Origin: Chloroflexaceae bacterium
Lineage (GTDB): Bacteria; Chloroflexota; Chloroflexia; Chloroflexales; Chloroflexaceae
Assembly (NCBI GenBank): GCA_012032475.1
Contig: JAAUSY010000003.1
Span: 1 to 64,000, forward strand
Reading direction: 5' to 3'
DNA length: 64,000 nucleotides
A program made the translations under genes and the position numbers. Under the pieces are notes generated by a model that worked only from the letters and a program-made list of their open reading frames with translations, was not told the origin of the DNA and did no database searches. This document shows positions 42,565-50,054 of the stretch, piece after piece (position 1 is the stretch's first letter; every line of letters begins with the position of its first letter).

Positions 42565-45276
42565 TCATTCCATTATCCCGACCTCCGGTGGTTCGCCCTC
42601 TATCGGCAGACTGAAGGAGAACACCGCACCCCCGCCGGGGCGATTCACCGCCCAGATTCGCCCGCCGTGGGCCGCTATCATCCCACGGCAAATCGCCAAC
42701 CCCAACCCGACGCCACGCCGTGCTCCCGCCGGCTGGGCCTGGGCAAACTTCTCAAAAATACGCTCCTCATCACCCGGTGGCACCCCCGGCCCATCATCGG
42801 CGATAGCAACCACCACGCTGGCAGGGATGGATACCGCACCGGAATCAGCCGGTATGGCGTGGGACGAAAGCGCTATCGGACTGCCAGGCGGAGTATACTT
42901 CAACGCATTGTCCAGCAGGTTGATGAGCACCTGCTCAATCAGCACGCTGTCGAGCGGCACCAGCGGCAGGTCGGGCGGCAGGTCAAGGTGCAATTGGCGA
43001 CCATGCAACCGGGCATCCAGCCGGTGCAGCGCCGCGCCCACCACCTCCTCAAGAGGCTGCCACTCCTTGCGCACCTGAATGGTACCTGTTTCGATGCGCG
43101 TCATATCCAGCACCCCATTAACCAGCCGCCCCAACCGCTCCGCCTCCTCATAGATAGCCAGCAGCAAATCGTGGCGGTCGGACGGCCCCAGGGCCCCGCC
43201 GTGTTCCAGCAAACTGCTGGCCGCACCGATGATGCCGGCCAGCGGCGTGCGCACATCGTGCGAAACGGAACTGAGCAGCGAACTGCGCAGCCGCTCCGTT
43301 TTGACCCGCACCTGGGCCTGCTGGGCTTCCGCAGCCAGCGCCACCCGCTCCAATGCCAGCGCCGTCTGGCTCGCAAAGGCTTCCAGCAAGTGCCGCTGTT
43401 CGGGCGTGGCACTCGTGGCAGGCTGCGATAGGCGCACACCGAGCACCCCCACGGTCTGTTGCCCGGCCAGCAATGGCACATAGAGCAACTCCGCGCCCGG
43501 CAGCGTATCGGTCGTGCGTCCGGCCAGGTGCCCGTGGTCAAAGACCCACTGGGCCACCCCGCATTCGGCACGACTCAGCGTCTCGGCAGGAACCTGCCCG
43601 GCCCGCACGGTCACGTGCCCCTGGTCGTCTGGCAGCAGGATCACCGCCTCGCTGGCAAACACCTCGCCGACATGGTGGACCGCGTGGTCCAGGATGGTCT
43701 GACAATCGTTAGCCGCGGCAAAAGCCCGGCTGATAGCATACAACGCAGCCGTGCGGCGTTCGCGCCAACGCGCCACCTCGGCCTGCTCGCGGATGCGCAC
43801 CGTGAGGGTGCTGATGACCAGCGCAACGGTGAGCATCACCGGGAAGGTGACGAGGTACTGGGAATCATCCACTTCGAGTGTGTAATAGGGCATGGTAAAG
43901 AAGAAATTGAAGGCGACCACGCTCGCCACCGAAGCCACCACCGCCGCACTACGGCGCACGCGAGTTGCCAGCATCGTGATACCAAGCAGATAGACGAGGA
44001 TGACGTTATTCTGGCCGATAGATGGAAAAAGCACCACCCCGCTCATGGTGCAAACCACCAGCATCACCCCGACCCACCCATAGTCCGACCAGCGCAACGT
44101 AGGGTGCAGGATGGGAGAAGGCACCACCGGTGCAGAAACGTCGTCGCTCCCACTGACGAAGGTCACATCTATCTCGTCGCTCTGGCGCACCAGCGTGTCG
44201 GCAAACGAACCCACCAGCAATTCGCGCCAGCGAGGATGAGACGGCTTCCCCGCCATGATGCGCGAGACATTGCGCGTGCGGGCATAGGCAATAATCTCGT
44301 CAGCCGCACGGTGCCCCTCCAGGGTCACGACCTCCGCGCCCAGTTGCTCGGCCAGCCGCAGCGTCTGGGACACGCGCATACGGTCCAGGTCGGGCAAACG
44401 CCGGGTGTGCGGGGTCTCCACATAGACCGCCAGCCACGGAGCCTGCATGCGCTGCGCCATCCGGCAGGCCGCCCGTACGACCCGCGCCGAGGATGGGCTG
44501 GGGCTGACGCACACCAGCAACCGTTCGGTGGTCGGCCAAGTCTGGGCAATCGCATGATCGCGCTTGTAGTGCTGCATCTGCGCGTCTACGCGGTCGGCAG
44601 CGCAGCGCAGGGCCAGTTCCCGCAGGGCCATCAGGTTGCCCTTCCGGAAGAAATGCCGGGCGGCAACCTGGGCCTGCTGCGGCACATAGACTTTGCCTTC
44701 TGCAAGCCGCTGGAGCAGGTCGTCGGGGGACAGGTCAACCACTTCGATCTCGTCGGCGTGATTGATAATAGCGTCGGGCACCGTCTCACGAATGACGACG
44801 CCGGTAATCTGCGCGACCACATCTCCCAGGCTCTCGATGTGCTGCACATTGACGGTCGTATACACCTCTATCCCCGCTTGCAGCAGTTCTTCCGCATCCT
44901 GCCAGCGCTTGTGGTGGCGCGAACCAGGCACATTCGTGTGCGCCAGTTCATCCAGCAGCAGCAGCGCTGGCCGCCGCTCCAGGGCCGCATCCAGGTCGAA
45001 CTCGGGCAGAATGGCGGTGCGATAGCATAGCCTGGTGGGGGGCAACCGCTCCAGGCCATCCAGCAGGGCTTCGGTTTCGGGCCGCCCATGCGTTTCCACC
45101 CAACCCACCACCACGTCCACCCCTTCGGCGCAGCGCTGGTGGGCCGCTTCAAGCATGGCGTAGGTCTTGCCCACCCCTGCTGCCGCGCCAAAGAAAACCT
45201 TGAGTTTGCCGCGGGTCTGCTGTTGCTCGGCTTGTTGCACGCGGGCAAGAAGCTCCTCCGGGTCCGGTCGTTTCAT
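42565..45276 (-). CDS. kdpD: KdpD sensor histidine kinase
   Basis: About 903 residues. Seen: the N-terminal KdpD/USP domain (GKLKVFFGAAAGVGKTYAML; VYTTVNVQHIESLGDVV), a universal-stress segment, four membrane helices of the DUF4118 type (about 420-510), a GAF domain, HisKA with SSVSHDVRTPLAGIIG and HATPase_c with VLINLLDNALKYTPP and ADDGPGVPPGDEERIFEKF. The start ATG 45276 overlaps the kdpC stop (ATGA). The longer frame from 45369 lies in kdpC and is rejected. It senses K+ limitation and osmotic change. Confidence 0.95.
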   Translation of the reverse strand: MKRPDPEELLARVQQAEQQQTRGKLKVFFGAAAGVGKTYAMLEAAHQRCAEGVDVVVGWVETHGRPETEALLDGLERLPPTRLCYRTAILPEFDLDAALERRPALLLLDELAHTNVPGSRHHKRWQDAEELLQAGIEVYTTVNVQHIESLGDVVAQITGVVIRETVPDAIINHADEIEVVDLSPDDLLQRLAEGKVYVPQQAQVAARHFFRKGNLMALRELALRCAADRVDAQMQHYKRDHAIAQTWPTTERLLVCVSPSPSSARVVRAACRMAQRMQAPWLAVYVETPHTRRLPDLDRMRVSQTLRLAEQLGAEVVTLEGHRAADEIIAYARTRNVSRIMAGKPSHPRWRELLVGSFADTLVRQSDEIDVTFVSGSDDVSAPVVPSPILHPTLRWSDYGWVGVMLVVCTMSGVVLFPSIGQNNVILVYLLGITMLATRVRRSAAVVASVASVVAFNFFFTMPYYTLEVDDSQYLVTFPVMLTVALVISTLTVRIREQAEVARWRERRTAALYAISRAFAAANDCQTILDHAVHHVGEVFASEAVILLPDDQGHVTVRAGQVPAETLSRAECGVAQWVFDHGHLAGRTTDTLPGAELLYVPLLAGQQTVGVLGVRLSQPATSATPEQRHLLEAFASQTALALERVALAAEAQQAQVRVKTERLRSSLLSSVSHDVRTPLAGIIGAASSLLEHGGALGPSDRHDLLLAIYEEAERLGRLVNGVLDMTRIETGTIQVRKEWQPLEEVVGAALHRLDARLHGRQLHLDLPPDLPLVPLDSVLIEQVLINLLDNALKYTPPGSPIALSSHAIPADSGAVSIPASVVVAIADDGPGVPPGDEERIFEKFAQAQPAGARRGVGLGLAICRGMIAAHGGRIWAVNRPGGGAVFSFSLPIEGEPPEVGIME

Positions 45277-45881
45277 GGAGCCAGGGACGTTTCCTCCTCT
45301 CCGGCCAGATTTTCCAGGGCGATATTTAGTGCGAGCACGTTCACCACCGGCTCTCCTAGCAGACCGCACCCCCGCCCCTGGGTGTGCGTTGCCACCAGTT
45401 GTCGCACCACCGCTTCATCCAACCCCCGCGACCGGGCCACCCGGGCCACCTGATAGGCGGCGGCGGCAGGGCTGATGTGCGGGTCTAACCCGCTTCCGGA
45501 AGCCGTCACCAGGTCAATGGGAATGGGCGCGGTATTGGTCGGGTCTGCTCCCCGCAGGGCCTCCACCCGCGCCCGTGCGGCTGCCAGCAGATTCGGGTTC
45601 AGCGGGCCATAGTTCGAGCCGGATGAAGCGGCGGCCTGGTAGGGAAAGGGCGCGGTGGCCGAGAGCCGCCCCCAGAAAGCACCAGGGTCGCGGAATGCTT
45701 GCCCGATGAGCCTGGACCCTACCACCTGCCCACGGTGCTCAATCAGGCTTCCGCCGGCCTGATACGGGAAGAGCACCTGGGCAAAGCCCGTCACCGTCAG
45801 TGGATAGATCCCCCCGGTGATGAGAGTCATCATCAGCACCAGCATCAGGGTCGGTCGTATCTGTTGGCGTATCATCCCCAT
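45273..45881 (-). CDS. kdpC: KdpC subunit of the K+-transporting ATPase
   Basis: A 202-residue protein with one N-terminal membrane helix (TLMLVLMMTLITGGIYPLTV) and the KdpC pattern LIGQAFRDPGAFWGRLSAT, then SSGSNYGPLNP and LGEPVVNVLALNIALE. KdpC stabilises the KdpA-KdpB complex. ATG 45881 has GGGGGG upstream; its stop overlaps kdpD. It follows the 43-residue gene below. Confidence 0.95.
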   Translation of the reverse strand: MGMIRQQIRPTLMLVLMMTLITGGIYPLTVTGFAQVLFPYQAGGSLIEHRGQVVGSRLIGQAFRDPGAFWGRLSATAPFPYQAAASSGSNYGPLNPNLLAAARARVEALRGADPTNTAPIPIDLVTASGSGLDPHISPAAAAYQVARVARSRGLDEAVVRQLVATHTQGRGCGLLGEPVVNVLALNIALENLAGEEETSLAP

Positions 45882-45909: not shown

Positions 45910-46041
45910 CTATACGCCCATCGCCTGGGCCAATCCGATCAGAAACGCCAGCGCAAACACCATCACGACCAGACTACCGAGGCAATAGCGCATCGTCATG
46001 AGCAGCATATCACATATCAGCCGTTCTTCGTACGAGAACAT
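45910..46041 (-). CDS. 43-residue membrane protein in the kdp operon
   Basis: This short frame reads MFSYEERLICDMLLMTMRYC then a hydrophobic helix (LGSLVVMVFALAFLIGLAQA). AAAGGAGG lies seven bases before ATG 46041, an excellent ribosome site. It fills the gap between kdpB (stop 46086) and kdpC (start 45881). It is not KdpF, which is present upstream of kdpA. It may be a small accessory subunit of the Kdp pump. The Tyr/Glu/Arg-rich N-terminus faces the cytoplasm if the positive-inside rule applies. Confidence 0.65.
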   Translation of the reverse strand: MFSYEERLICDMLLMTMRYCLGSLVVMVFALAFLIGLAQAMGV

Positions 46042-46085
46042 GGGAGCGCCTCCTTTCACATTGCCTCACACCGCCTCACACCGCC

Positions 46086-48205
46086 TCAAAAGACCAGGTT
46101 CAGGGCCACATCTATCACTTTGATACCAACAAAGGGCGCAACCAACCCACCCAACCCGTACCCCAGCAGGTTGTCACGCAGGAGTGCTGCTGCCCCCACC
46201 GCACGGTAGCGCACACCGCGGAGCGCCAGCGGGATGAGCGCAATGATGACGAGGGCATTGAAGATGACCGCCGAGAGAACGGCGCTCTGTGGGGTTGCCA
46301 GCCGCATGATGTTGAGCGCGTCCAGCGCCGGGTAGGTGGTGGCGAATGCCGCCGGGATGATAGCAAAGTACTTTGCCACATCGTTGGCAAGGCTGAAGGT
46401 CGTGAGCACCCCGCGTGTCATCAGGAGTTGCTTGCCCACAGCAACTACTTCAATCAACTTGGTCGGACTGGAGTCGAGATCGATCAAGTTGGCCGCCTCC
46501 TTCGCCGCCTGGGTGCCAGTGTTCATCGCCACAGCTACATCTGCCTGGGCCAGCGCCGGCGCGTCGTTGGTACCGTCGCCGGTCATCGCCACCAACCGCC
46601 CGCCCGCCTGATAATCGCGGATCAACTTCAGCTTGGTTTCGGGGGTCGCCTCCGCCAGAAAATCATCTACGCCTGCCTCTGCCGCAATCGCCGCCGCCGT
46701 GAGCGGGTTGTCGCCGGTAATCATCACCGTCTTGATGCCCATGCGTCGCAGTTCGGCAAAGCGCTCGGTGATGCCGCCCTTCACGATGTCTTTGAGTTGC
46801 ACCACGCCAAGCACCTCCGCCCCATCCGCCACCACCAGCGGGGTAGCCCCCTGCCGCGCCACCTTCTCCACCGTGGCCTGCACATCGGGCGGCAGGCGGC
46901 TGCCTCGCCGCCGGATATGCTCCGCTATGGCATCGGCTGCGCCTTTGCGTATCTGGCGACCATCGGGTAGGTCAACCCCGCTCATGCGCGTATGGGCGCT
47001 GAAGGGCACAAACACGGCCCCCAGGGCTTGCATATCGCGCCCGCGCAAGCCGAATTGTTCCTTTGCCAGCACCACGATGCTGCGCCCTTCGGGGGTTTCG
47101 TCGGGCAGCGAGGCCAGTTGGGCCGCATCCGCCAGGGACGCCGCGCTGGTCCCCGCTGCCGGCAGAAACGCGGTCGCCTGCCGGTTGCCCAGCGTAATCG
47201 TGCCGGTCTTATCGAGCAGCAGCACGTCTACATCACCCGCCGATTCGACGGCCCGTCCCGACATCGCAATGACGTTCGCCCGGATCATCCGGTCCATCCC
47301 CGCAATGCCGATGGCCGGGAGCAACCCCCCGATGGTCGTCGGGATGAGGCACACCAGCAGCGCCAGCAGCACCGTGATGGTCACGGGTTGGCCCTGCCCG
47401 GCCTGCGCCACGCAGTAGAGCGAGAAGGGCAGCAGCGTGACGGTCACCAGCAGAAAGATGATCGTGAGCGCGGCAAGCAGGATGTGCAGTGCGATTTCGT
47501 TCGGGGTCTTTTGCCGCTTCGCGCCCTCAATCAGGTCAATCATCCGGTCGAGAAACGCCTCGCCCGGATTGGTCGTGATGCGGACCAGCAGCCAGTCAGA
47601 GAGCAGGCGCGTGCCCCCCGTGACGGCGCTATGGTCGCCGCCGCTCTCGCGGATGACCGGCGCGCTCTCGCCGGTGATGGCGCTCTCGTCTACCGAAGCC
47701 ACCCCGGCCATGACCTCGCCGTCACCAGGGATGCTATCACCCGCCTCGACCAGGACCACATCGCCCTTTCTCAGCGTGCTGGCTGGCACGTTCGTGTAGC
47801 TGCCGGGTGGGGGGGCTGAACCTGGCGTGGTGGGCAGGTGGCCGGGCAGTTTCTTTGCCTGCCCGTCCTGACGGGCGCGGCGCAGACTGTCGGCCTGCGC
47901 TCTGCCGCGTCCTCGGCCATCGCCTCGGCAAAATTGGCAAACAGCAGCGTCCCCCAGAGCCAGCCGGTGATGGCAAAGATAAAACTGACGGGCGCTTCCC
48001 CCGGCCCTGCGAGTGCCTGCCCCAGCAACAGCGTTGCCAGCATGCTGCCCACCCACACCACAAACATCACTGGATTGCGGATCTGGTGGCGCGGGTTGAG
48101 CTTGCCCAGCGCGGCATACATGGCCGACCATACCAGGGTGGGTTCCCACAGCGGGCGGGACCGGGTGCGGGTGGGGGTTACCTGAATTTCCGATGGGGAA
48201 GTCAT
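46086..48205 (-). CDS. kdpB: KdpB catalytic subunit, one-base frameshift
   Basis: About 706 residues when read across a frameshift. Seen: the membrane start ([20 protein letters not shown]), TGES loop [13 protein letters not shown], phosphorylation motif [14 protein letters not shown], nucleotide domain, and [20 protein letters not shown] with [20 protein letters not shown]. The two frames join at about 47910-47912: [11 protein letters not shown] in one frame should continue as [14 protein letters not shown] in the other, needing one extra G. It is either a sequencing or assembly error or a real inactivating deletion. The enzyme hydrolyses ATP to drive K+ import through KdpA. Confidence 0.88.
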
Positions 48206-48223: not shown

Positions 48224-49965
48224 CTACTGATACCACATCAGATGTTCTGCGATGGGACCAAGCGCCAGCACCGGAAAGAAGGTGAGCGCCCCGACGATGA
48301 GCACCACCCCCACCAGCAGCGCCACAAAAAGCGGCGTGTGGGTGGGTAGCGTGCCCGGCCCGGCAGGCACCGTCTTTTGGCGGCCAGCGAACCAGCGATA
48401 GCCAGCACCGGCAAAGCGACCCCGAAACGCCCCGCCACCATCGCCACGCCCCCCACGAGGTTGTAGAAGAGGGAATCGCTGCTGAGGCCAGCAAAGGCGC
48501 TGCCGTTGTTGTTGGCACAGGACGCAAAGGCATACAGAACTTCGCTCAGGCCGTGCGCCCCCGGGTCCTGCAATCCGTCCAGACCCACGGGCGTGATGAT
48601 CGCGGCGGCGGTGCCGATGAGCACGAACGCCGGGGGTATCAGGATGGCAATGGAGGCCATTTTCATCTCAAAGGCCTCCACCTTCTTGCCCAGGTATTCA
48701 GGCGTGCGCCCGACCATCAGGCCGGCAACGAATACCGCAACGATAGCAAAGATGAGCAGGCCATACAGCCCGGAACCAACCCCGCCAAAGATGACTTCGC
48801 CCAGCAGCATCAGGAACAGGGGCACCAACCCGCCCAGGGGGGTAAACGAATCGTGCATCGCGTTGACCGAGCCGTTGGATGCCGCGGTTGTTACGGTGGC
48901 CCACAGCGCCGAGTCGGTGATGCCGAAGCGGGTTTCTTTGCCTTCCATATTGCCACCGGGCTGCCCCTCGCTGGCCGCGATGTCGGCCCCCAGGGCCGCG
49001 AGGTGCGGGTTGCCCTGCTGTTCGGCCACCACGGCGGCCAGCAGCAGCGGCCCGAATACCAATAGCATCGCGGCCAGCAGCGCCCACCCCTGACGCGGAT
49101 CGCCCACCAGGATACCAAAGGTGATGCACAGCGCGGCAGGGATGAGCAGGATTGCCAACCCCTCCAGGAAGTTCGAGAACGCGGTCGGGTTTTCCAGCGG
49201 GTGGGCCGAATTGGTGTTGAAGAAGCCCCCACCGTTGGTGCCCAGTTGCTTGATGGCAATCTGGGATGCGGCCGGCCCCAGGGCTATCACCTGCTCCGTC
49301 ACCAGGTGACCATCGGCATCGGTGGTCGTTTCCAGCAAACGCGCCGTTGGGTAGGGGGCGAAGGTCTGCACCACGCCCTCGGAGATGAGCGCCAGCGCCA
49401 GCACAAACGCGAGCGGCAGCAGGATGTAGAGCACGCCACGGGTCAGGTCGGCCCAGGCGTTGCCAATGGTGGACGCCGATCTGCGGGCAATGCCGCGAGT
49501 GAGCGCCACCAGCACGGCCATCCCCGTTGCCGCCGAAAGGAAGTTCTGCACCGTCAGTCCGGCCATCTGCGAGAAGTAGCTCATCGTCACTTCGCCGCTA
49601 TAGTTCTGCCAGTTGGTGTTGGTGACAAAGCTCGTCGCCACATTGAAGGCCGTGTCGGGGCGCAACCCGGCCAGGTGCTGCGGGTTGAGCGGCAGCACCC
49701 CTTGCAGCAGCAACAACAGCAAGAGCACCAACCCACCCACCGCGTTGACCAGCAGGATGACCAGGGCATACGTCGTCCAATGCATCTCCTCGTCGGCCCG
49801 AACCCCGCACCCGCGGTAGATGAGCCACTCGGCAGGTGCGAACAGACGGTTCAAGCCGGCGGGTTCGTCCTGGTAGATTTTTGCCATATACCAACCGACA
49901 GGCCTGACCAGCAGCAGCAGCGCGGCGAGGAAGACGCCAATACGGAGATAGGTCATCGTCGTCAT
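48224..49965 (-). CDS. kdpA: KdpA channel subunit, one-base frameshift near the C-terminus
   Basis: About 580 residues when corrected. Seen: filter-like loops [49 protein letters not shown] and [15 protein letters not shown], plus about ten membrane helices. Around 48375-48378 (TTTT on the plus strand) a single base is missing: the as-read frame gives AAKRRCLPG and stops at 48238, whereas adding one A restores [20 protein letters not shown] and a normal KdpA end at TAG 48224. ATG 49965 overlaps the kdpF stop (TGATG). The kdpB ribosome site follows. Confidence 0.9.
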
Positions 49966-50054
49966 CAGAACACCTCCGGCTTCAGCAGGGCCACCACCAG
50001 ATAGACGAGCAGGAAAACGGCTACGACGCCACCAACGATAGGTATGAGGGTCAC
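49965..50054 (-). CDS. kdpF: KdpF small subunit
   Basis: A 29-residue membrane peptide reading VTLIPIVGGVVAVFLLVYLV (GTG start read as Met) then VALLKPEVF, the KdpF pattern of one helix ending YLVxALLKPExF. GAGGAG lies just before the GTG at 50054. Its TGA overlaps the kdpA ATG. KdpF is thought to stabilise the complex. Confidence 0.9.
   Translation of the reverse strand: MTLIPIVGGVVAVFLLVYLVVALLKPEVF

Follow-up and report, generated by a model that had tools for sequence, protein, structure and literature searches.

A 43-codon gene for a predicted single-span membrane protein lies between kdpB and kdpC in the kdp operon of a Chloroflexaceae bacterium. The protein is distinct from KdpF and has counterparts at the same place in two other genera. 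It probably serves the Kdp pump as an accessory subunit peculiar to this clade, in a role like that of KdpF. KdpFABC is a potassium pump whose structure is well studied. The gene is read here against the known subunits of this complex and against the small proteins that other bacteria encode at the same position.

The 43-codon frame and its relatives

In the window, i.e. the whole stretch of 64,000 nucleotides that was analysed, the operon runs on the minus strand in the order kdpF-A-B-x-C-D-E, where x is the 43-codon frame (Table 1). The placement between kdpB and kdpC given by an earlier note on this DNA is correct: the frame starts 44 bp after the end of kdpB at 46086, and its stop codon is followed after 28 bp by the start of kdpC at 45881. 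Translation of positions 46041-45910 (minus strand) gives MFSYEERLICDMLLMTMRYCLGSLVVMVFALAFLIGLAQAMGV, followed by a stop. The same note had described a ribosome site, AAAGGAGG seven bases before the ATG, and a single helix, and both were recovered. The pattern AAAGGAGG-N7-ATG has one match in the 64 kb, at 46056-46039 (minus strand), with 0.03 matches expected by chance. AlphaFold2, run on the single sequence of the 43-aa protein, predicted one continuous helix spanning residues 4-40 with a mean pLDDT of 92.5. Charges are found at both ends of the protein and indicate no clear topology. Neither a promoter-like site on the coding strand nor a terminator-like site was found at the slot between kdpB and kdpC, and an RNA family search of the slot region yielded no match.

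Relatives of the protein were sought by tblastn in 158 genomes of the class. Scored genome-wide, the search returned a match in G021 (genus g10; E 2.5e-4) and another, less strong, in G019 (genus g8; E 0.08), each of them exactly between kdpB and kdpC. The alignment of the three slot proteins covers 43 residues, has no internal gap and contains 12 invariant positions, including E5, R7, Y19, G22, LAFL, G36 and QA. Pairwise identities amount to 16, 14 and 22 of 43 residues, and none of these values was reached in 20,000 codon shuffles of any pair. That so short a frame, overlapped by open frames on the opposite strand, arose by chance is hardly credible in view of these syntenic homologues, the shuffling result and the ribosome site. 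Judged from the sequences, the frame is a gene and not a chance frame, because two other genera have homologues in this slot and the identities lie beyond the reach of the shuffles.

The gene evolves fast. The G021 and G019 slot proteins are 33-37% identical to the window protein, compared to 66-72% for KdpC. Per site, synonymous differences exceed nonsynonymous ones (pS 0.53-0.62, pN 0.33-0.43), a comparison based on three sequences that have diverged too far for selection to be estimated firmly; purifying selection is thus weakly measured, since only three fast-evolving sequences, all from one clade, are available.

Table 1. Features of the kdp region in the window
Feature	Position	Strand	Evidence
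kdpF, canonical, 29 aa	49965..50054	-	PF09604 and TIGR02115 above cut-off
kdpA, one frame break at ~48343-48379	48230..49965	-	tblastn with G021 KdpA
kdpB, one frame break at ~47807-47900	46086..48205	-	tblastn with G021 KdpB
10-bp direct repeat, 2.6 copies, between kdpB stop and ribosome site of the 43-aa gene	46063..46088	.	
Shine-Dalgarno AAAGGAGG, 7 nt 5' of the ATG of the 43-aa frame	46049..46056	-	pattern search
43-aa single-span membrane protein	45910..46041	-	translation; same-slot homologues in G021 and G019; predicted helix 4-40
kdpC, 202 aa	45273..45881	-	PF02669, E 2.4e-71
kdpD sensor kinase; listed frame begins 5' of the likely ATG	42565..45369	-	open frame; kdpD also 3' of kdpC in G021 and G034
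kdpE-type response regulator, 239 aa	41832..42551	-	receiver and winged-helix sequence directly 3' of kdpD; named by sequence and position

The distribution of the protein is narrow. In a tree of concatenated KdpA, KdpB and KdpC, the window genome, G021 and G019 form one group with 100% support, and the protein was found neither in the remaining 155 class genomes, those devoid of kdp included, nor in the phylum sample. The other readable kdp loci of the family (G034, G016, G031, G017 and G032) lack such a frame in their slots, which measure 28-98 bp; G020 and G029, whose contigs show no kdpB before kdpC, were left out of this comparison, as were G005 and G001 with kdp fragments only. A phylum-wide profile search gave no syntenic match outside the three-genus clade. 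Its match in G043 (E 4.8e-5) contains an internal stop, lies away from the kdp locus of that genome and was dismissed. No relative emerged from a profile search of genome contigs with the peptide alignment or from a tblastn search of plasmids, and Pfam, NCBIfam, PHROGs and PDB hold no family for the protein. A single gain in the clade followed by retention is the simplest history. The earlier note had made its reading depend on conservation in relatives; the frame survives this comparison, but its conservation is confined to a clade of three genera.

Relation to KdpF

All three genomes with a slot protein carry a canonical KdpF 5' of kdpA. In the window, KdpF scores 31.2 bits with PF09604 (cut-off 21.2) and 38 bits with TIGR02115 (cut-off 26.85), which bears out the earlier assignment of KdpF to 49965-50054. 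The slot proteins match neither model even at E 10, and against a local KdpF profile they reach 4.0-6.6 bits compared to 36-63 for true KdpFs. Their alignments lack the C-terminal YLxxAL...PExF pattern of KdpF, and the slot gene is not located directly 5' of kdpA, a place that kdpF itself occupies. Unlike the 29-aa KdpF, the slot proteins comprise 43-50 residues, possess an N-terminal extension and have no conserved PExF tail and no Pfam or NCBIfam match. Both proteins can be compared within G019, where KdpF reads YTIGGVLAILLLAYLL and the slot protein YTIGGFVAIAVLLAFLT. The identification of the 43-aa protein as KdpF was rejected on account of the failing curated models, the missing PExF tail and the separate canonical KdpF before kdpA, and the view that it is a conserved kdp-operon protein of its own is upheld.

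Some likeness is nevertheless present. Both KdpF and the slot protein are hydrophobic peptides with a single span and a gene in the kdp operon, and the two share a faint profile similarity. When the three slot proteins were scored jointly against the KdpF profile, 7 of 4,000 column shuffles reached their score (about 2 in 1000; post hoc), and a profile-profile comparison by hhalign returned a P value of 7.6e-4 but a probability of only 25%. The background comprised 372 ordinary membrane helices, taken from the window as well as from related loci, and 3 to 19 of them (1-5%) scored as well. The resemblance was seen first and tested afterwards. An origin from a duplicated KdpF is therefore possible but unproven and can serve as a lead only, given that 1-5% of ordinary helices score alike and that the test was post hoc. 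Duplication of the N-terminal helix of KdpC was also considered and discarded, as 516 of 4,000 column shuffles scored as well.

If a KdpF duplicate were the source, it might also be a decaying copy that no longer has a function. The weak resemblance to KdpF, the low identity among the slot proteins and the missing tail motif would fit such a relic, as would the broken frames of kdpA and kdpB in this draft genome. The frame itself is open, however, its start, its length and 12 of its residues have been kept in three genera, and a ribosome site as strong as the one seen in the window is atypical of a relic, so that decay appears quite improbable. The frame breaks may stem from either assembly error or real decay; kdpA and kdpB are both intact in G021, and kdpB is frame-broken in G019 too.

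The kdpB-kdpC slot in other lineages

Among 114 Chloroflexota kdp loci, most kdpB-kdpC slots are shorter than 60 bp, and a scan that yielded mostly other phyla (77 loci) found a membrane frame in only one slot. Where slots are filled, different lineages have different proteins. All six species of a genus that we infer to be Herpetosiphon-like (f2 genus g20; L004, L005, L007, L012, L017, L019) carry a two-helix slot protein of 87-88 aa; its frame extends across the start of kdpC, and it matches no known family. The two-helix slot proteins of other Chloroflexota, namely L175, L190 and L201, are 109-141 aa long (109-118 aa in f64, 141 aa in L201). They show a W-x(3)-N pattern behind their second helix and possibly form one family with those of the Herpetosiphon-like genus. 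These two-helix proteins share the slot with the window protein and differ from it in their two predicted helices and hydrophilic tails. Kinship was not supported, since the f2 and f64 proteins gave no match to the window-family profile. Membrane proteins of about 249 aa fill the slots of L099, L102, L106 and L177; the one that was scanned, from L099, contains DUF4118 and resembles a detached piece of KdpD. The L177 slot holds a further two-helix frame of 68 aa.

A cyanobacterial case is found on plasmid pAQ7 of Picosynechococcus (L120:986-2135), where the slot contains a response regulator, an 83-aa protein and a very basic 47-aa protein. The 83-aa protein ends in a KdpF domain (PF09604, 32.5 bits), and its gene is presumably the counterpart of Synechocystis KdpG. 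In Synechocystis, the gene order is kdpABGCD (PMC13099474). The cyanobacterial KdpG-type gene is like the window gene in coding for a small membrane protein with an N-terminal extension and in its position between kdpB and kdpC. Assignment of the 43-aa protein to the pAQ7 type was rejected because it is devoid of the C-terminal KdpF domain. The earlier statement that no such subunit is known in KdpFABC does not hold, as small kdpB-kdpC genes are on record (kdpABGCD, PMC13099474) and other lineages carry their own. Given the Synechocystis order, these other slot proteins and the absence of any library match, a small gene between kdpB and kdpC is of a known kind, and the 43-aa family appears to be new within the libraries searched.

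A putative accessory subunit of the Kdp pump

The slot gene co-occurs with kdp and lies close to kdpC, and these two facts, like the order of the genes, point to a part in the pump or in its assembly. The distance from the end of the frame to the kdpC start is 28 bp in the window, 1 bp in G021 and about 15 bp in G019, which suggests that the protein is translated together with KdpC. In each of the three genomes, the frame ends 1-28 nt before kdpC, and this could also mean that translation of the frame merely sets the level of KdpC while the peptide itself does little. It is the amino-acid sequence and not the spacing that is conserved, however, RNA structure at the kdpC start is not unusual (z -0.02, 0.09 and -0.71) and the frame is absent from nearby relatives, all of which makes a pure coupling frame improbable.

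As an accessory subunit, the slot protein would insert beside KdpC or KdpB during synthesis and pack on the complex via its conserved half, formed by Y19, G22 and A32-F-L-x-G36-x-x-Q39-A40. This half carries A32-x3-G36-x3-A40, and such small-xxx-small spacing is typical of packed helices. The invariant residues as a set show no significant clustering on one helix face (P 0.30). Once packed, the protein may stabilise the pump or tune it in a manner similar to that of KdpF. It might have arisen from a KdpF duplicate that was extended at its N-terminus and no longer has the PExF tail, a weakly supported origin. KdpF, itself a peptide with a single span, has a stabilising effect on the complex in vitro but is not essential for transport, and its role in the living cell has been described as elusive (PMC3618439); a structure with KdpF as a stabilising single-span subunit is available (PMC6255902).

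Instead of serving the pump, the protein might, as a membrane peptide, regulate the sensor kinase KdpD or another membrane protein. Small membrane peptides are regulators of sensor kinases, and a two-hybrid test showed binding of KdpD by the KdpF of mycobacteria (PMC3618439). In both the window and G021, kdpD follows shortly 3'. Against this, the slot gene sits among structural genes, and overexpression of KdpF in mycobacteria left kdp regulation unchanged (PMC3618439). A regulatory peptide is thus unlikely, and a role at the pump remains the preferred reading.

In one Chloroflexales clade, the protein could be a fifth structural Kdp subunit beside KdpF, which would suggest that the position between kdpB and kdpC repeatedly acquires small membrane subunits; this wider proposal is tentative, though far from remote. 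A second single-helix kdp protein, unrelated or only distantly related to KdpF, together with the slot genes of other lineages would provide a natural comparison set for the function of helper helices.
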